This document shows, piece after piece, positions 34,341-41,908 of a stretch of DNA of 64,000 bases. A model generated the notes under the pieces. That model saw nothing but the letters and a program-made list of their open reading frames with translations. It searched no databases and had not been told where the DNA came from. Within the stretch, counting starts at the first letter, position 1. Each line of letters begins with the position of its first letter. The stretch is from Pandoraea capi (GTDB lineage Bacteria > Pseudomonadota > Gammaproteobacteria > Burkholderiales > Burkholderiaceae), in assembly GCF_902459735.1 (NCBI RefSeq), contig NZ_CABPRV010000012.1:62001-126000 (forward strand). Reading direction: 5' to 3'. The position numbers and the translations under genes are program-made.

Positions 34341-35440
34341 ATCATCTGCGCGTGCCGCTCGCCAGCGTTGGCGACTTCGACGAAATCATCGACGTTCGTA
34401 CGCCGCTCGAATTCGCCGACGATCACATCCCCGGCGCCATCAACGCCCCGGTGCTCAGCAACGAAGAACGCATTGTCGTCGGCACGATGTACAAGCAGGT
34501 CTCGCCGTTCGACGCCTCGCGTGAGGGCGCGGCCATGGTCGCGCGCAACATTGCGCATCATCTCGATACGGTGTTTGCCGACCGGCCGCGCAACTGGCGT
34601 CCGCTCGTGTATTGCTGGCGCGGGGGCATGCGCTCGGCGTCGATGACGCTGATGATGAACATGATCGGCTGGCGGGCGCGTCAGCTCGAAGGCGGCTACA
34701 AGACCTATCGCAGCGATGTCGTGGCCTCGCTTGCGACATTGCCGCCGACGCTCGACTACGTGGTCCTCGCCGGACACACCGGCTGCGGCAAGACACGTCT
34801 GCTGCACGCGCTGGCCCACGCCGGGGCGCAGACGCTCGATCTCGAAGGCCTCGCCGTGCATCGGGGCTCGCTGCTCGGCGCGATGCCCGACGCGCCACAG
34901 CCGTCGCAAAAGGCTTTCGACACGCGGTTGATCGGTGCGCTGCGTGCGCTCGATCCGGCGCGTCCGGTGTTCGTGGAAGCGGAGAGTCGTCGCATCGGCC
35001 TCGTGACGCTGCCCGAGTCGCTGATGACGGCGATGCGCGGCACCATGCGCTGCGTCGAGGTCAGCGTCGCCATCGACGAGCGTGTGGCATTGCTCACGCA
35101 GGAGTACGGTCATCTGCTTGCGCAGCCGGAGGCGTTTCGCGCGCAGTTGCTGCGGCTCGTTCCGTTGCATGGCAGGGCGGTCGTCGACCAGTGGCTGGCG
35201 ATGCTCGATCAGGGGCAACAACGCGAACTCTCCGAAGCGCTCATCACGCGGCACTACGACCCGGCGTACACGCGCAGTTCGCGCAAGCTGCTCAAAGGGC
35301 TGACGCAGGCGATGCCGTTCGCGTTTCATCCCGTCGCGCAAGACCTGCGCCCGCAGGCACAGGCCCTGCTCGCCGTCATTTCACCGGCAGACAGATCTTC
35401 GTCTGAAGCTGTGCCGCCGGGGTCGAACGCGGGTCGTTGA
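34337..35440 (+). CDS. mnmH: tRNA 2-selenouridine synthase (MnmH/SelU)
   Basis: The 367-residue protein begins with a rhodanese domain (EIIDVRTPLEFADDHIPGAI) whose active-site loop is YCWRGGMRS, with Cys93. A P-loop (GHTGCGKT, about residues 146-153) starts the C-terminal domain. This is the architecture of SelU, which geranylates 2-thiouridine at the tRNA wobble position and then replaces sulfur by selenium with selenophosphate. The presence implies selD elsewhere in the genome. The start overlaps the lipoprotein stop (ATGA). The last 65 bases overlap the convergent AraC gene. Confidence 0.93.
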   Translation: MNHLRVPLASVGDFDEIIDVRTPLEFADDHIPGAINAPVLSNEERIVVGTMYKQVSPFDASREGAAMVARNIAHHLDTVFADRPRNWRPLVYCWRGGMRSASMTLMMNMIGWRARQLEGGYKTYRSDVVASLATLPPTLDYVVLAGHTGCGKTRLLHALAHAGAQTLDLEGLAVHRGSLLGAMPDAPQPSQKAFDTRLIGALRALDPARPVFVEAESRRIGLVTLPESLMTAMRGTMRCVEVSVAIDERVALLTQEYGHLLAQPEAFRAQLLRLVPLHGRAVVDQWLAMLDQGQQRELSEALITRHYDPAYTRSSRKLLKGLTQAMPFAFHPVAQDLRPQAQALLAVISPADRSSSEAVPPGSNAGR

Positions 35441-36209
35441 GGTACTGCTCGAACATCGGGAAGTTGGCCGGTTCCAGCCCGCTGTTCGGCAGCCACTCCG
35501 AAAAGAGCCACTGATACGGCTTGCTCATCTCGTTGTACGGGCCGGTGTACGTCAGCACGGCACATCGTCCGGCCGGAATCTCGAACCTTTCCAGATCGCC
35601 GCCAATGTCGGCATTGCTCGCAACCGACACGCCGGCGAGCGAGCGCAACTGTTCGGTCGGCACCTGTTCCGGATCGTCGAAATAGACGCCGAAGCCGGTG
35701 GTGTCCGGTCGCGCCAGACCGTGCGCGGCGGCCAGCATGAAAACGCGGACGAAGACGGGGCCGATGGCCTGGTAGTCGCCGCTGTGTCGCAGCGCGGCAA
35801 GGGTCGTGGCGGGAAACGATTCGACTGAGATCGGGTACATGTTGGGCTCCTGAGGATCGACGGGATCGGAGCGGGTGTCCCGATAGCGTCCCGGCGGCAT
35901 GCCGAAGAACGCACCGAAGGCCCGGTTGAACGCGGCGTCCGACGTATAGCCGGCGCGCGACGCCACAACGCGCATCGAATCCTCCGAGTCTGCCAGCGCG
36001 ATGGCTGCACGATGCATGCGAATGCGCTGCACCGTGCCGTTCACCGTCTCGCCGAGCAACGCGCGGTAGACACGATGGAAGTGATACGGCGACAGGCAGG
36101 CCAGTTCGGCGAGGTGGTACAGATCCGGGGGACTCTCCGGATGACTGGCCAGCCAGCGCAGCACAGGCTCCATGCGTTGGGCGTAGCGAAGACGGGTCTC
36201 GGGTTTCAT
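35376..36209 (-). CDS. AraC-family regulator with GyrI-like domain
   Basis: A 277-residue protein. The first ~110 residues are an AraC-type DNA-binding domain with two helix-turn-helix units (LYHLAELACLSPYHFHRVYR and RVVASRAGYTSDAAFNRAFG, the latter followed by FFGMPPGRYR). Residues ~125-277 are a GyrI-like/effector-binding domain (YPISVESFPATTLAALRHSG), as in Rob and SbmC. Such proteins often sense small hydrophobic compounds. It stands alone, transcribed toward selU and overlapping its end by 65 bases. Upstream there are about 100 bases to the acetamidase fusion gene. Confidence 0.92.
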   Translation of the reverse strand: MKPETRLRYAQRMEPVLRWLASHPESPPDLYHLAELACLSPYHFHRVYRALLGETVNGTVQRIRMHRAAIALADSEDSMRVVASRAGYTSDAAFNRAFGAFFGMPPGRYRDTRSDPVDPQEPNMYPISVESFPATTLAALRHSGDYQAIGPVFVRVFMLAAAHGLARPDTTGFGVYFDDPEQVPTEQLRSLAGVSVASNADIGGDLERFEIPAGRCAVLTYTGPYNEMSKPYQWLFSEWLPNSGLEPANFPMFEQYLNDPRSTPAAQLQTKICLPVK

Positions 36210-36305: not shown

Positions 36306-38693
36306 TCAATCGTTAAACATTCCCTTGCGGATGATGGCGTGCACGCCCCAGTTGCCATTGACGACCTGCGTCACCCCGAAGTCGACGGACACCGAGAGTA
36401 TCGCAGTGGCTTCGTCCTCGGTGAGCCGTTTGACTTGCATGAGAAAGCGGCGCGCTTTGAGGAAGGCGTCGCGCAGGGCGCTGTCGAGCGTCGATTTCAT
36501 GTAGATCTGGCTCTGCGCCTTCTGTCCCAGCTCGGCGAGATGATTCGGCGAACTGAAGCCATGGATGATCCACTCGGTCGGGGTCTCGACCAGCGGATAG
36601 GTCAGGTCGGCATACGGTGCGCTCGCCTTGATCGCCGCCTTCTTGTGCAGGATCAGCTGGATGTTGCCGGTGAGCGAACACTCGATGGCGGTGCCGCCGA
36701 GTTCGGCGTCGCCCTGCGACGCGTGCGGGTCGCCGACGGACAGCAGGGCACCCGGCACCGCGACCTTGAGGAACACGCTTGCGCCGCGCGTCACGCGCCA
36801 GTTGTCGAGATTGCCCGCGTAGCTCGACGGCGGAATCGAGTCGATCAGGCCGTCCTGTGCGGGCGCCACCGCCAGCACCCCGAAGTGTGGCCGCAGCGGG
36901 ATTTCGACATTCCGGAGCGTGCGGTAATTCTTGGTGATGCGGGTGTGATCGACCGGCACGCCCGGATAGTCGATGGTCGGATGCACCACGCCGAACGGGT
37001 CTTGCTGCGGTGTCCAACGGAAGCTGTAGATGGCGCGTGCGACGTCGCTGCCTTCGTCCATCGATTCGTTGCCGGTGCCGTCGTGGCAATCGATCTCGAA
37101 CACCGTCACGACTTCGCGCTCGCGCGGCAGCGTGAGCATGTCCTGGTAGTGGAAGCCCCACCATGTCGAGGCATGGCTGCCGAAGGCCTTGCCCGCGAAC
37201 TCGGGGTTGGCGCTCGGGCGGGGTTGCAGGTCCAGAATCCGGACTTCGAGCACGTCGCCGGGCATGGCGTCTTCCACCGCGATGGGGCCGGTGCAGATGT
37301 GCACGCCGAAACCTTCGCCCGCACCGCGTCCGTAGACCGACGCATCCATCGGTCCCGCGCCGCGCCGGTCGACGTTCTTCTGCGTGGCGGTCCAGTGAAA
37401 CACGCTCTCGGCGCCGGGGTCGCCCTCGATCATGCGCGCCCAGTCGTCGGTCGCGTGTTGCGTCAGGGTCTCGATGGTGACCGTGTCCCCGGACGCCACC
37501 GTCAGCACGGGCGCAAGGTCATGACTCAGATAGCCCCAGTGCACTGAGTCGCACGTTGCGCGCAGGTAGTGATGGCGGCCCGCGTCGTGGGGGAGCGCGC
37601 GGCGCAGCGCGTCACCGCCGGGCTTTGCGTCGTGCGAGGGCAGACGGACGTGCGCCGCGTGGGCGGCATGAGGCGCATGGGGGGAGAGTCCGGCGGGCAC
37701 ATCCGGATGGCCGCGCGAGATACGGGCGCGCTCCGGCAGCACGCGCTCGCGCAACGCCTGATCGCGGCTGGCTTTGGGCGACACGCCAAAGCGCTCGCGA
37801 AATGCCTGGCTGAAGTACGACGGATCGTTAAACCCCCAGCGATAACAGATGTCCGCCACCGTCAATTGCTCATACGCCGGATTCTGCAAATCCGCGTGGC
37901 AGCGCTGCAAACGGCTGTTGCGCAGATAGGACGAGAAGCTTTGTCCCGCGTCTTCGAAGAGTTTTCGCAAGTAACGATCCGACACATGCTCGTCTTTGGC
38001 AATCGTGCTCAACGACAGATCGGGTTCGGCCAGTCGCGCCTGAATCCGGTGACAGATGCGCGTGAACACGATGGTGCGCGACGTCGACAGAGGCGAGGCC
38101 TGCGGTCTGACGGCCGTCAGTGCGCACGCGAGGCATTCGAGGATCACGCGCTCAGCGGGTTCGAGCGCATGCGGATCGGCGTCGTGCATCGTGTCCAGTT
38201 GCCGGGCCAGCCCGCTCAGCAAGCCGCCGAACAGACCCGACACGCGCTCGGGAAGTTTGCACGCGTGCGTTGGCGGCGCTGCGCCAAGACGCGGGGCGAT
38301 GAGTGCATGACGCACATGCACCGAAATCAGCCGGAACGGCGTTCGGGCGACGAGATCGGCGCTGTGCGTGCCGGGGATGCAGGCCATGTCGCCGGCCATG
38401 AGCGTCTCGCCCTCGGGCACGCCCGCGCCGGTCAGCTCCGCCTGACCGTCGAGCAGCATGACGAGCAGGAAGCCACGCTCGCCGCCTGCGCGCGCCGACA
38501 CCGTTTGCGGCGTGGACGCGATCACCGACAGTTCGATGCCGCCGGGGGTGCGATGCGTGAGCAGCGTGCCGTGCAGCGGCTGGGCGTCGGAGGGGGCGCG
38601 AAAATGCAGGCGGGCGTCGAGCAGGCGCGCTTGCCACGCAGGCCCGCGCTGATCCTGGGCGTAGGACTCGGTTGAGAAGTGCGCGCGATCCAA
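36306..38693 (-). CDS. fusion: AraC-type regulator + acetamidase/formamidase
   Basis: Starting at TTG 38693, seven bases after a perfect AAGGAGG, the protein has 795 residues. Residues ~1-200 resemble the sensor part of AraC-binding-like regulators; ~228-306 are a double helix-turn-helix (LSTIAKDEHVSDRYLRKLFE and TVADICYRWGFNDPSYFSQA). A His/Ala/Pro-rich linker (~325-375) joins it to a complete FmdA/AmdA amidase from ~residue 377 to the end (DSVHWGYLSHDLAPVLTV, GDPHASQGDAELGGTAIE). No stop or frameshift separates the halves, and the frame is open throughout. It is the last gene of an operon with a second amidase and two XapX proteins. Confidence 0.85.
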   Translation of the reverse strand: MDRAHFSTESYAQDQRGPAWQARLLDARLHFRAPSDAQPLHGTLLTHRTPGGIELSVIASTPQTVSARAGGERGFLLVMLLDGQAELTGAGVPEGETLMAGDMACIPGTHSADLVARTPFRLISVHVRHALIAPRLGAAPPTHACKLPERVSGLFGGLLSGLARQLDTMHDADPHALEPAERVILECLACALTAVRPQASPLSTSRTIVFTRICHRIQARLAEPDLSLSTIAKDEHVSDRYLRKLFEDAGQSFSSYLRNSRLQRCHADLQNPAYEQLTVADICYRWGFNDPSYFSQAFRERFGVSPKASRDQALRERVLPERARISRGHPDVPAGLSPHAPHAAHAAHVRLPSHDAKPGGDALRRALPHDAGRHHYLRATCDSVHWGYLSHDLAPVLTVASGDTVTIETLTQHATDDWARMIEGDPGAESVFHWTATQKNVDRRGAGPMDASVYGRGAGEGFGVHICTGPIAVEDAMPGDVLEVRILDLQPRPSANPEFAGKAFGSHASTWWGFHYQDMLTLPREREVVTVFEIDCHDGTGNESMDEGSDVARAIYSFRWTPQQDPFGVVHPTIDYPGVPVDHTRITKNYRTLRNVEIPLRPHFGVLAVAPAQDGLIDSIPPSSYAGNLDNWRVTRGASVFLKVAVPGALLSVGDPHASQGDAELGGTAIECSLTGNIQLILHKKAAIKASAPYADLTYPLVETPTEWIIHGFSSPNHLAELGQKAQSQIYMKSTLDSALRDAFLKARRFLMQVKRLTEDEATAILSVSVDFGVTQVVNGNWGVHAIIRKGMFND

Positions 38694-38780
38694 AATCCGG
38701 CCTCCTTCGGAAATGACGACGGCGGCCCGGCACGGCCGTCGTCGACCGTGCCGGGGCCACACGTCAGACGTGCAACTGCG

Positions 38781-38972
38781 CTAGCCGAAGTGTAACTGGC
38801 CGCGCATTGCCGCCACGAAAGCAAAGCCGACGAACGTGCCGACGATGGCGAAGATGCCGCCGAGCACGTTCGGCGCGGGAATCGGCGCCCGCACGCCGGT
38901 GTACAGCACACCGGTGACGAGCCCGACCGCCGCCGCCTGCAACTCGGTCGCCCCGAGTGTGATTTCGACCAT
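38781..38972 (-). CDS. XapX-domain small membrane protein (second copy)
   Basis: A 63-residue protein with GAGGAG before its ATG. It has two hydrophobic helices flanking the motif PIPAPNVLGGIFAIVG, the hallmark of the XapX (DUF1427) family. The first helix is AAAVGLVTGVLYTGV, the second FVGFAFVAAMRG. XapX proteins are small, often occur as tandem pairs and have no proven function; their two-helix form suggests dimeric transport or channel subunits. It begins 10 bases after the first XapX gene and precedes the AraC-amidase fusion. Confidence 0.88.
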   Translation of the reverse strand: MVEITLGATELQAAAVGLVTGVLYTGVRAPIPAPNVLGGIFAIVGTFVGFAFVAAMRGQLHFG

Positions 38973-38982
38973 GATGCGCTCC

Positions 38983-39240
38983 TCAGGACTGACGGGCAGA
39001 AGGGGACGAAGACGATGCCCCGGCGCCCGACAGGCTGTCAGCGGGCGGACGTCCGAACGTGACCGAGCGGCGCCACACGTTCACGATCAGATAGCCCAGA
39101 TACGTGAAGATGATGGCGAAGATGCCGCCGAGCACATTCGGTGCGGGAATCGGCAGATCGAGCCACGAGTACAGCGTGCCCGTCACCAATCCGACGATCA
39201 GGGCGACAAGCTCGTTGCGCCCGACGTAGACGTATTGCAT
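38983..39240 (-). CDS. XapX-domain small membrane protein (first copy)
   Basis: A 85-residue paralogue of the next gene, started at ATG 39240 with GGAGG upstream. It shares PIPAPNVLGGIFAI exactly with it, has the helices LVALIVGLVTGTLYSW and FTYLGYLIVNVW, and adds a C-terminal tail rich in Ser, Pro and Ala after VTFGRPPADS. It lies 28 bases after the stand-alone acetamidase/formamidase gene. Pairing of two unequal XapX copies between two amidase genes suggests a heteromeric membrane component, perhaps for amide or ammonium/formate movement; this is inference. Confidence 0.88.
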   Translation of the reverse strand: MQYVYVGRNELVALIVGLVTGTLYSWLDLPIPAPNVLGGIFAIIFTYLGYLIVNVWRRSVTFGRPPADSLSGAGASSSSPSARQS

Positions 39241-39268: not shown

Positions 39269-40300
39269 TTAATCCGACTTGGGCGTCTTGGGCGGGAACA
39301 TGCCGCGCGGCATGGTGCAGTGCACCCCTTGCGTGCCGTCGACGACCTGCGTCACGCCGAAGTCGGCCGCCACGCTCATGAGCGAGTAGGCGTCGTCGCG
39401 TGACAGTCCCTGCTGGTCGGTGAGCAGCGTGATCATGTCGCGTGCGGCGTTCTTGCCCGCTTCGTCCAGATCCTGATGGAAGCCGTGCACGATCCAGCAG
39501 TCGGGGGTTTCCAGCAGCGGCGAGGGGAACTCGAAATCCTTGCGCAGCACGACCTGGAACAGCACGTTGAGCGAGGCTTCGATGGCGGTGCCGCTGATTT
39601 CGCCGTCGCCCTGCGAGATGTGCGGGTCGCCGATGGAGAAGAGCCCGCCGTCGACCTGTACCTTGTAGTACATGGTCGCGCCGGCGCCGATGCGCCAGTT
39701 ATCGATGTTGCCGCCGTGCAATCCCGGCTCGACGGTCGTCACACGGCCCTGCGCGTCGGGGGCGACGCCTGCCGTGCCGAGGTGCGGTCGCACGGGCACA
39801 CGCACGCCGGCCAGTGCCGGTTGCTTGCAGCACTCACGATGGTCGACGACCTTGCCCGGTGTCGTGAGCTTGCCCGGGTAGTCGTAGGCGTACAGCGCGT
39901 GAGCGGTGTTCGAACGGTTATCCAGTTCGTAGATGGTGACGCGTTCCTTCTGGAAGTCGTCGTAGAGTTGCCCCCAATGTGCGGCGACGTTCGCGCCGAA
40001 GCGGAAGCGGGGAATCATCTGGAGATAGCGCACTTCGAGCATGTCGCCCGGCTTCGCGCCTTCCACATAGATCGGGCCGGTCATGATGTGCACGCCCGGA
40101 TTGCGATCTTCGTGGGGAATCTTGTCGTAGATGGCGCGCACGGCGTCGTCCATCATCAGATCGGGGGCGTCGCCCGCGTGATGCGTGACGGCTTCGGCGC
40201 GAATGAAATCGCCGCTCTTGATCGTCAGCGCCGGTTTCTGTGTCGCGTCGAAGTAGCCCCAATGCACCGTGTCGGGCCGTGCGGGAAGGTCGTGAAGCAT
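39269..40300 (-). CDS. acetamidase/formamidase family protein
   Basis: From ATG 40300, with AGGAGAC upstream, the protein has 343 residues; 14 more codons are open before it. The FmdA/AmdA fold is visible from DTVHWGYFDATQKPALTI, IMTGPIYVEGAKPGDMLEV, the GDPHISQGDGEISGTAIEAS block and the C-terminal SVAADFGVTQVVDGTQGVH. Enzymes of this family hydrolyse short amides (formamide, acetamide) to ammonia and the acid. It is ~70 residues shorter than typical FmdA (~410). It is the first gene of the amidase/XapX operon; its homologue is the C-terminal part of the AraC fusion encoded at 36306. Confidence 0.92.
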   Translation of the reverse strand: MLHDLPARPDTVHWGYFDATQKPALTIKSGDFIRAEAVTHHAGDAPDLMMDDAVRAIYDKIPHEDRNPGVHIMTGPIYVEGAKPGDMLEVRYLQMIPRFRFGANVAAHWGQLYDDFQKERVTIYELDNRSNTAHALYAYDYPGKLTTPGKVVDHRECCKQPALAGVRVPVRPHLGTAGVAPDAQGRVTTVEPGLHGGNIDNWRIGAGATMYYKVQVDGGLFSIGDPHISQGDGEISGTAIEASLNVLFQVVLRKDFEFPSPLLETPDCWIVHGFHQDLDEAGKNAARDMITLLTDQQGLSRDDAYSLMSVAADFGVTQVVDGTQGVHCTMPRGMFPPKTPKSD

Positions 40301-40430
40301 GCCATGTCTCCTGAGAATTTTTGTCGGATTGCCCGCAAACACTGTTCACGGTGAAGTCATGGTAGTGCCCGACAAAAACGCACCATTAGGAGCGTTTGAC
40401 ACCTTCTCTATTGCTGGGAGGAACTAACGT

Positions 40431-41375
40431 TTACCCGTGCTGCGCCGCCCGCCCGCGTGCCTCCAGCTGGGTGTAGATGTCTTGCGACAGGCCCAGCAAC
40501 GTTTGCCGGTCGATGCCGCCCGAAATGGCATAACCGAACGTCTTGTCGACCCAGTAGAAGACCTTGACCGGCCCATCCTCATAGAAGCGGAATGCCGCCG
40601 GCTGACCCTCCACGCCGGCCGGCGAGATGCACACGGTGATGCGCTCGCCTGCGTCGTTGCGATACATGTACTGGATGACGCGCTCGTCGCTGTCGGGCAG
40701 TGCGCGCCCGCCGCTCAACTGGAAGCCGCGCGCGCTGAGGTCGGGCGCATGCGCGGTGGTCTCGAGACGGCTGGCGATCCACTGCGAGAAACGGGCTTCG
40801 GTCTGTCCGTCCACGCCCGACGGACGCTGGATCTCGGGCATGTAGACGACGTGGGCGATGGCCGCGCGCCGGGCAAAGCGCACGGCGCTGTCCGCGACCG
40901 TGACGGCGTTCGCTGCGCCACCGATGCCACCGGTGCCGCCGGTCATCGCCAGCGACGGCGCGGCGGGCGACGGTGCCGACCACATGCGGTTGCCTTGCAC
41001 GCCGATGCCGATACCGACGACCAGCGCAGCGGCCAGTCCTGCGAAACGTGACCAATGCGGCCAACGCCGCTGGTTAGCGGCGCTCGTGCGCCGGGCTCGC
41101 TGTGGTTCCGCCAGTTCAGGCGCATCAGGCGCACCGGGCATCTGCGCCGGACGCGGCTGCGGCCGTTGCAGACGGGCGGGAATCGGCTCATCGAGCACGT
41201 CGTCGTAACGGGCGTGCAGTGCGCGCTTGAGCGCGACGATCTCGCTCACGGCCGCCGCCAGCGCGGGGTCCTCGGCGAGTGCGCGGTCCAGCTCTGCACG
41301 GCGTTGCGGCGGGAGTTCTCCGTCGACGTACGCGTGCAGTTCACTATCGTCGATCGTATGGGTCCGGTCGTTCAT
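40431..41375 (-). CDS. anti-sigma factor, membrane-anchored
   Basis: The ATG at 41375 overlaps the stop of the sigma gene (ATGA). The 314-residue protein has a helical cytoplasmic N-terminus (ELHAYVDGELPPQRRAELDR) lacking a zinc-binding His/Cys motif, one membrane helix (FAGLAAALVVGIGIGVQ) near residue 115 and a ~180-residue periplasmic domain with VVYMPEIQRP and FYWVDKTFGYAISGGI. This is the RskA-like architecture: the N-terminus holds the sigma factor at the membrane until a signal releases it. The signal may relate to the oxidative genes next door. Its N-terminus is related to the partial protein encoded at 63800. Confidence 0.87.
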   Translation of the reverse strand: MNDRTHTIDDSELHAYVDGELPPQRRAELDRALAEDPALAAAVSEIVALKRALHARYDDVLDEPIPARLQRPQPRPAQMPGAPDAPELAEPQRARRTSAANQRRWPHWSRFAGLAAALVVGIGIGVQGNRMWSAPSPAAPSLAMTGGTGGIGGAANAVTVADSAVRFARRAAIAHVVYMPEIQRPSGVDGQTEARFSQWIASRLETTAHAPDLSARGFQLSGGRALPDSDERVIQYMYRNDAGERITVCISPAGVEGQPAAFRFYEDGPVKVFYWVDKTFGYAISGGIDRQTLLGLSQDIYTQLEARGRAAQHG

Positions 41376-41908
41376 CGCACCACCTTCAGCTTCGCAGGTT
41401 GACCGATCCCGCCGGACGGCGCGATGCCTGACATCAGATCGCGCAGCCGCTGCCTGCCGCGCGAGAGGCGCGACATGACGGTACCGATGGGCACTTGCAG
41501 CGACGAGGCGACATCCGCATAGCTCATGTCTTCCAGTCCGACGAGCAGCACGATGGCGCGCTGCTCGGCCGGCAGGTGCCGCAAGGCTTCGTCCAGGTCC
41601 CGGATTTCGAGACGGCGTGCGGGGTCGACCGGCACGGCGACTTCGCGCTCGGCGATGTCGGTTTCGTCCAGCGACACGTGTGCTGCCTGCGCGGGCGCGC
41701 GCCGCTGCTGATTGAGAAACAGGTTGTGCATGATGGTAAAGAGCCATGCGCGGGCGTCGGTGCCCACTTCGAACATGGTGTGACGGCTCAGCGCGCGCTC
41801 CAGCGTGTCCTGCACGAGGTCGTCGGCCAACTCGGGGTTGCCCGTGAGCGCGCGCGCATACCGCCGCAGGCGCGGAACGTGGTCGTACAGCTGGTCGCGG
41901 ATGTCCAT
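41372..41908 (-). CDS. ECF RNA polymerase sigma factor
   Basis: The 178-residue product has the sigma-70 region 2 segment DDLVQDTLERALSRHTMF and DARAWLFTIMHNLFLNQQRR, and region 4 with LPAEQRAIVLLVGLEDMSYA and LQVPIGTVMSRLSRGRQRLR. There is no region 3, as in ECF factors. The anti-sigma gene overlaps it by four bases. It diverges from a catalase-family gene and a b561 gene, and outward-facing promoter-like motifs sit on both strands of the gap (see the two motif entries), consistent with self-activation and control of the peroxidase operon. Confidence 0.93.
   Translation of the reverse strand: MDIRDQLYDHVPRLRRYARALTGNPELADDLVQDTLERALSRHTMFEVGTDARAWLFTIMHNLFLNQQRRAPAQAAHVSLDETDIAEREVAVPVDPARRLEIRDLDEALRHLPAEQRAIVLLVGLEDMSYADVASSLQVPIGTVMSRLSRGRQRLRDLMSGIAPSGGIGQPAKLKVVR

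Follow-up and report, generated by a model that had tools for sequence, protein, structure and literature searches.

Regulators of the MocR/GabR type consist of an N-terminal GntR-type winged helix-turn-helix (HTH) and a PLP aminotransferase-like fold, and in the accessible parts of two reports this linkage of a DNA-binding domain to an enzyme-fold sensor serves the control of catabolic genes (PMC6917764, PMC5320631). The effector domain of BzdR derives from shikimate kinase, and the available sections of its description make the loss of enzyme activity a part of its evolution (PMC3602430). The fmd cluster of Methylophilus methylotrophus is substrate-induced and comprises an FmdA-AmdA formamidase, an importer and a putative regulator, as presented in the portion of the source at hand (PMC10781810).

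The gene described here encodes an AraC-type regulator joined in frame to an FmdA_AmdA amidase domain and lies in a window of 64,000 nucleotides, the window being the whole stretch of DNA that was analysed. Ada and the AraC regulators with DJ-1/PfpI domains likewise combine, in one chain, an AraC-type HTH with a domain that is an enzyme or resembles one, though of other folds. Compared with MocR/GabR, the regulator in the fusion is of AraC type and has an N-terminal domain of its own, and the FmdA_AmdA fold sits C-terminally; Pfam finds neither a GntR winged HTH nor an aminotransferase-like domain in it. With BzdR it would share an enzyme-derived effector domain, whereas the DNA-binding domain and the enzyme family differ, at least from those given in the available sections on BzdR; Pfam gives no match to a shikimate-kinase-like domain in the fusion. 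In contrast to the fmd cluster, as far as the portion at hand describes it, the regulator here itself holds the amidase domain and has XapX genes or an importer of the amino-acid type as neighbours. FeaR of the AraC/XylS family (NCBIfam PRK09685) aligns with the fusion at residues 18-313, but under its cut-off and with the amidase domain as an addition. Among solved proteins, the amidase half is closest, along its entire length, to 3b9t from Methylobacillus flagellatus, a periplasm-type amidase; 3b9t is free enzyme-like, with His and Tyr aligned to positions 412 and 642 of the fusion, and lacks a DNA-binding half. By analogy, the sensor reading developed below resembles MocR/GabR and BzdR in its logic, and the fusion is a member of neither. 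No description of an AraC-FmdA_AmdA fusion was found in the literature searched, a body of work that omits most subscription papers, probably including the structure papers on the family.

The fused gene and its domains

On the reverse strand, 795 codons run without an internal stop from a TTG at 38693 to the stop at 36306 (Table 1). The sequence GGAGG (38705..38701) stands 7 nt ahead of this TTG, and the start region is alignable across 16 Pandoraea homologues. The frame is also open further upstream, as far as a GTG at 38762, and no support was seen for that codon as the start. The preliminary description of this DNA had placed a regulator and an FmdA-type amidase in one frame of this length, and the open frame, the Pfam domains and the recurrence in other genomes bear this out. 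Pfam HTH_18 scores 69.1 bits over residues 231-311 (cut-off 33.6) and HTH_AraC 48.8 bits (cut-off 26.6), which identifies the HTH as AraC-type; Pfam FmdA_AmdA (PF03069) scores 90.6 bits (gathering cut-off 27), which places the C-terminal half in that family.

A sensor domain at the N-terminus, also part of the preliminary description, is putative. The first 200 residues have zero Pfam matches, even at E 1. NCBIfam FeaR (NF007243) aligns over residues 18-313 at 125 bits, a score below the cut-off of 199 that leaves the protein outside the FeaR equivalog, and an AlphaFold2 model of moderate confidence (mean pLDDT 70.3, pTM 0.51) has an AraC part that resembles CuxR, ToxT and Rns in Foldseek. For the C-terminal half, residues 367-793 align with residues 66-479 of the solved 484-residue amidase 3b9t (E 2e-172), and Foldseek with the fusion model gives a TM to target of 0.83 for 3b9t, followed by 5ubu, 2ii1, 3tkk and 2f4l, which assigns the FmdA_AmdA fold. 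The name formamidase was set aside as a firm designation for this half, since the FormamaseFmdA equivalog (NF045496) reaches 52.7 bits, far under its cut-off of 500.

Table 1. Positions of the fused gene, its parts and its operon in the window.
Feature	Position	Strand	Basis
Fused gene, AraC-type regulator and FmdA_AmdA amidase domain	36306..38693	-	795 aa, TTG start
FeaR-like N-terminal domain (residues 1-200), presumably the AraC sensor of the ancestor	38094..38693	-	sub-threshold NCBIfam FeaR and predicted fold
AraC-type double helix-turn-helix, residues 231-311	37761..38003	-	Pfam HTH_18
Variable linker, residues 317-366	37596..37745	-	median dN/dS 0.393; length 46-85
Amidase domain, residues 367-793	36315..37595	-	3b9t match, Foldseek
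Codon of Gln412 (His in related free enzymes compared)	37458..37460	-	residue comparison
Codon of Leu642 (Tyr/Phe in related free enzymes compared)	36768..36770	-	residue comparison
Signature stretch around GDPHASQGDAE, residues 652-674	36672..36740	-	H657, Q660, D662, E664 and E671 invariant, 87/87
XapX small membrane protein gene	38781..38972	-	NCBIfam XapX above cut-off
Second XapX small membrane protein gene	38983..39240	-	NCBIfam XapX above cut-off
Free short FmdA-family amidase gene	39269..40300	-	Pfam FmdA_AmdA 105 bits
Conserved block ahead of operon, candidate promoter/operator	40301..40436	-	conservation in 16 Pandoraea loci

The operon and its conserved block

Two XapX genes and a free amidase gene are closely spaced upstream of the fused gene on the same strand. 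The free amidase starts with an ATG at 40300, where the conserved block ends; its listed frame extends to a GTG at 40342. The block measures 136 bp here and 113-136 bp in the 16 Pandoraea loci, and at its start it overlaps with the last part of the frame 40431..41747. Across these 16 loci its first 89 nt have a mean identity of 93.3%. The next gene reaches 64.3% at its 4-fold degenerate sites, and the 40 nt that adjoin the block on the outside reach 33.5%. The stretch directly ahead of the fused gene is poorly conserved except for the ribosome site and the start. Because the block is conserved and the fused gene's own upstream stretch is poorly so, control of the operon from the block is the simplest reading, and it is plausible that the fusion controls its own operon through this candidate site. 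The block differs between clades. A script scan for exact 7-8-base repeats found no direct repeat in it and, as the only inverted pair, TTTTTGTC/GACAAAAA; no operator half-site common to the clades appears in the blocks compared.

A GC-rich hairpin between XapX and the fused gene (38690..38785, reverse strand; z -2.31, 2 of 200 shuffles as good) was dropped because a coding control stretch scored z -2.28, likewise with 2 of 200. The block has a sharp edge at its start, and outside it, from 40437 upward, the flanks differ between groups of Pandoraea species. The downstream neighbour (35376..36209, reverse strand) codes for another regulator of the AraC type, which bears a GyrI-like domain.

Distribution and partner genes

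A search for the same two-domain order elsewhere, which the preliminary description had suggested, returned the same in-frame joint in many other genomes, and this recurrence excludes chance or a sequencing error as its source. The closest named loci are from Pandoraea species, with up to 89% protein identity. Within the genus, identified as Pandoraea by its named relatives, the fusion is present in 16 of 32 genomes (own genome counted) and is accompanied by the short free amidase in each of the 16; in the other 16, neither was matched at E 1e-30. With flanks that differ between species groups, the operon has the look of a cassette that was inserted at several sites, and half of the genus sample lacks it. 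Matches at 1e-60 were obtained in 61 of 398 genomes of the family sample, 58 of them full-length in one open frame; one more (G279) has both halves within a single 927-residue frame, and two have amidase fragments only. The phylum sample has 16 matching genomes of 398, 8 of them fused, and the order sample 17 of 300, 2 of them fused (own genome counted in each). The majority of sampled genomes are without the fusion.

Fusion in a single frame is found at 32 of the 36 loci of a named collection (2 of the 32 are cut by contig ends); of the remaining four, one is a fragment of an amidase where a contig ends, and three match in the AraC half only. The fused loci belong to Pandoraea, Paraburkholderia, Cupriavidus, Thiomonas, Rubrivivax, Methylophaga, Nitrincola and various MAGs (one of Pseudomonas, one of Rhodospirillales and others with less precise names). 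Plasmid records, in which 16 of 18 matches cover at least 80% of the fused protein, add Rhizobium, Sinorhizobium, Neorhizobium, Novosphingobium, Variovorax and Caballeronia, and the fusion is found across Beta-, Gamma- and Alphaproteobacteria. It is an old arrangement and a conserved regulator family, not a local oddity. Where the fused matches in plasmid records are annotated, they are called 'acetamidase/formamidase family protein' and, once, 'AraC family transcriptional regulator'.

Two further candidates with frames of 809 and 752 residues (L159, L160) were rejected: both are free amidases whose frames run on through open sequence before the gene begins. The annotation of a Rhizobium johnstonii plasmid (L170:4472-6881) splits the counterpart into a 174-residue hypothetical protein followed by HTH and amidase; this break lies ahead of the HTH, not in the linker. 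Another locus (L184) has a decaying second copy of short amidase and fusion that is broken into several open pieces and is followed by importer genes.

Another FmdA-family gene, of a short type, a long type or a long type with a Tat-like motif, is present within the fetched stretch in 99 of 107 fused rows, redundant loci included. The eight rows without one comprise four short contigs or contig ends (L047, L059, L066, L083), one place fetched twice (L093 and L158), and two with none in the stretch (L132, L141). A MocR-type gene with GntR and aminotransferase domains (L141:7438-8826, reverse strand) adjoins the fused locus at L141. An amino-acid-type importer occurs at 36 of 63 loci of at least 10 kb, weak matches counted; the parts checked were SBP_bac_3 and, in one protein, BPD_transp_1 and ABC_tran. 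No match to it was obtained in any of the Pandoraea, Paraburkholderia and Cupriavidus loci bearing XapX genes, and judging from gene content XapX may replace it there. In Rhizobium tumorigenes and Neorhizobium the gene order is SBP, permease/ATPase, amidase, fusion, RidA. Three rhizobial records (among L164, L167, L169 and L170) have RidA family genes behind the fusion; such neighbours hint that the pathway involves a reactive imine or enamine. Partner genes are either divergent from the fusion or co-directional with it. In all ten loci with a divergent fusion that were aligned (L127, L129, L131, L136, L138, L144, L146, L147, L149 and L150), a long imperfect palindrome, judged by eye, stands ahead of the fusion, for example GTGCATGCATGCGCC..GGCGCATGCATGCAC in L144.

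Selection, phylogeny and origin

Median dN/dS across the 16 Pandoraea copies is 0.167 for residues 1-200, 0.052 for residues 205-316, 0.393 for the linker and 0.055 for the amidase half. The amidase half is under purifying selection, constrained as strongly as the HTH region, and must therefore have a function. Over 85 fused copies, identity falls to a minimum of 26% in the AraC half and is never below 60% in the amidase half, and the linker varies from 46 to 85 residues. The distances of the two halves in these copies are correlated (r 0.94), a value reached by 0 of 1000 permutations. The amidase half has been kept by selection and co-inherited with the regulator.

A tree of amidase cores was built from 66 rows (26 fused, 32 long free, 5 short free and 3 distant) by a quick method, with near copies removed, columns 412 and 642 blanked and some long branches. 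The fused cores form one side of a branch, beside the long free amidases, with an SH-aLRT of 94, just short of the tool's star. Searched with the AraC half alone, 66 of 249 family genomes gave a match. Inspection covered five AraC places that are unfused or broken: the three best of the unfused and intact ones each follow a short free amidase gene directly, an unfused frame with an internal stop (G192) has no amidase in its 10.7 kb, and the fifth is the broken fused copy of L184. The three relatives behind amidases indicate that regulators of this lineage occur in amidase operons both with and without the extra domain. In the best tree of the AraC half, which has a poor, long-branched outgroup, the fused rows do not fall together on one side of a branch, and a single fused clade is not rejected (AU p 0.198). 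The unfused regulators may precede the fusion or may have lost the domain; the AraC-half tree fits either.

Residues of the amidase half

The residue comparison covers 87 fused cores, 54 long free cores and 36 short free cores, from which only identical cores were removed. Residues N628, D630, H657, Q660, D662, E664 and E671 are kept in 87 of 87 fused cores, in all 90 free cores and in 5 of 5 distant members. Position 412 is Gln in 85 of the 87 fused cores and His in two (L067, L133), and it is His in 90 of 90 related free enzymes, to which the comparison is confined, free enzymes distant from the group being left out. The distant members, which have His at this position in 4 of 5 cases through a gapped alignment, are kept out of the argument. 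Position 642 is Leu in 87 of 87 fused cores; the long free cores have Tyr (47) or Phe (7), and the short free cores have Tyr (36).

A later check set comprised 10 of the 18 plasmid records and their 9 free neighbours. The fused copies have Gln412 in 9 of 10 (His in Novosphingobium) and Leu642 in 10 of 10, and the free neighbours have His412 and Tyr642, each in 9 of 9. Two of these fused copies (L166, L168) have an altered signature stretch, AQADGE as against SQGDSE elsewhere, and in a third (L167) Gln replaces Glu408. Since the fused cores form one group, the counts at 412 and 642 are not independent events; they show that the changed state was kept, and the number of origins is not given by them. 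Gln412 is dispensable for the fusion, as 2 of 87 and 1 of 10 copies retain His. A binding or sensing domain is favoured because H412Q and Y/F642L fall where the related free enzymes vary little or not at all, and some activity may persist since the signature residues of the family are intact. The simplest reading of the amidase half is that binding was retained and catalysis altered.

Proposed mechanism and alternative explanations

On balance, we favour the reading that a paralogue of the amidase was turned into the amide-sensing part of an AraC-type regulator, one that acts on the operon to which it belongs. The protein would be a one-component transcription regulator with an enzyme-derived sensor, that is, an AraC/FeaR-like regulator of an amide-hydrolysis operon that carries a C-terminal relative of a pathway amidase (FmdA_AmdA, 3b9t-like). 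Its predicted DNA target is most likely the conserved block ahead of its own operon. An amide, or its hydrolysis product, would occupy the amidase fold and thereby change transcription, the ligand and the sign of regulation both being putative. Bulk hydrolysis would be carried out by the free amidase of the operon, and catalysis in the fused half may be lost or weak.

The preliminary description had raised the idea of a trigger enzyme, in which the amidase half is fully active and its turnover or occupancy sets the DNA binding of the whole protein. Strictly taken, a trigger enzyme is catalytically active and also controls gene expression. Covalent fusion of regulator and enzyme beside amide-hydrolysing genes fits such an enzyme, as do the full-length amidase domain, its strong purifying selection and signature residues that are intact in 87 of 87 cores. 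However, His412 is replaced in 85 and Tyr/Phe642 in all 87 of these fused copies, the later set adds the exchange of Glu408 in L167 and the altered signature stretch in L166 and L168, and with a free amidase encoded separately close by, a second catalyst is not needed. The architecture that the idea presupposed is sound, but the substitutions at 412 and 642 favour a sensing domain; an enzyme-derived amide sensor appears more likely, and a true trigger enzyme is a possible but rather doubtful explanation. Unlikely, in our estimate, is a self-erasing sensor, in which the former amidase would bind its inducer and slowly hydrolyse it. Each amide would then switch the regulator for one slow turnover, H412Q and Y/F642L would set the timer, and the ancestral AraC sensor domain would be secondary.

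It is less likely still that the amidase half acts as a scaffold, which would multimerise and set several HTH units on DNA without sensing. Solved entries of the family hold several chain copies (four in 3b9t), so the fold may self-assemble, and the linker is long and variable; pocket-type signature residues that are unchanged in 87 of 87 cores are, however, not obviously needed by a pure scaffold. The substitutions specific to the fused copies could also reflect a changed substrate specificity, as expected if the protein were a second amidase with a different substrate range, one of two enzymes in the operon, with the DNA-binding half as a passenger. Such a passenger is hard to reconcile with the median dN/dS of 0.052 in the HTH region, a constraint that matches that on the amidase half, and with unfused AraC relatives that adjoin amidase genes, and we consider this explanation very improbable. 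A sequencing or assembly error that joined neighbouring genes, a notion to which the two-piece annotation in Rhizobium (L170) could lend itself, has a negligible probability, as 32 of 36 named loci and 58 of 398 family genomes have one frame that runs open through the joint, and the break in L170 falls ahead of the HTH instead of at the linker.

Significance

If the enzyme-derived sensor is real, the fusion would be a widespread, naturally replicated case of a pathway enzyme that was copied into the sensor of its own operon. The free enzyme, the unfused regulator and the fusion would all be on hand for comparison, and as two positions would part sensor from enzyme, the step from one to the other could be tested with point mutants. 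Among the proteins recorded as 'acetamidase/formamidase family protein', some are probably regulators, and the family would provide an amide-responsive regulator of a new build.
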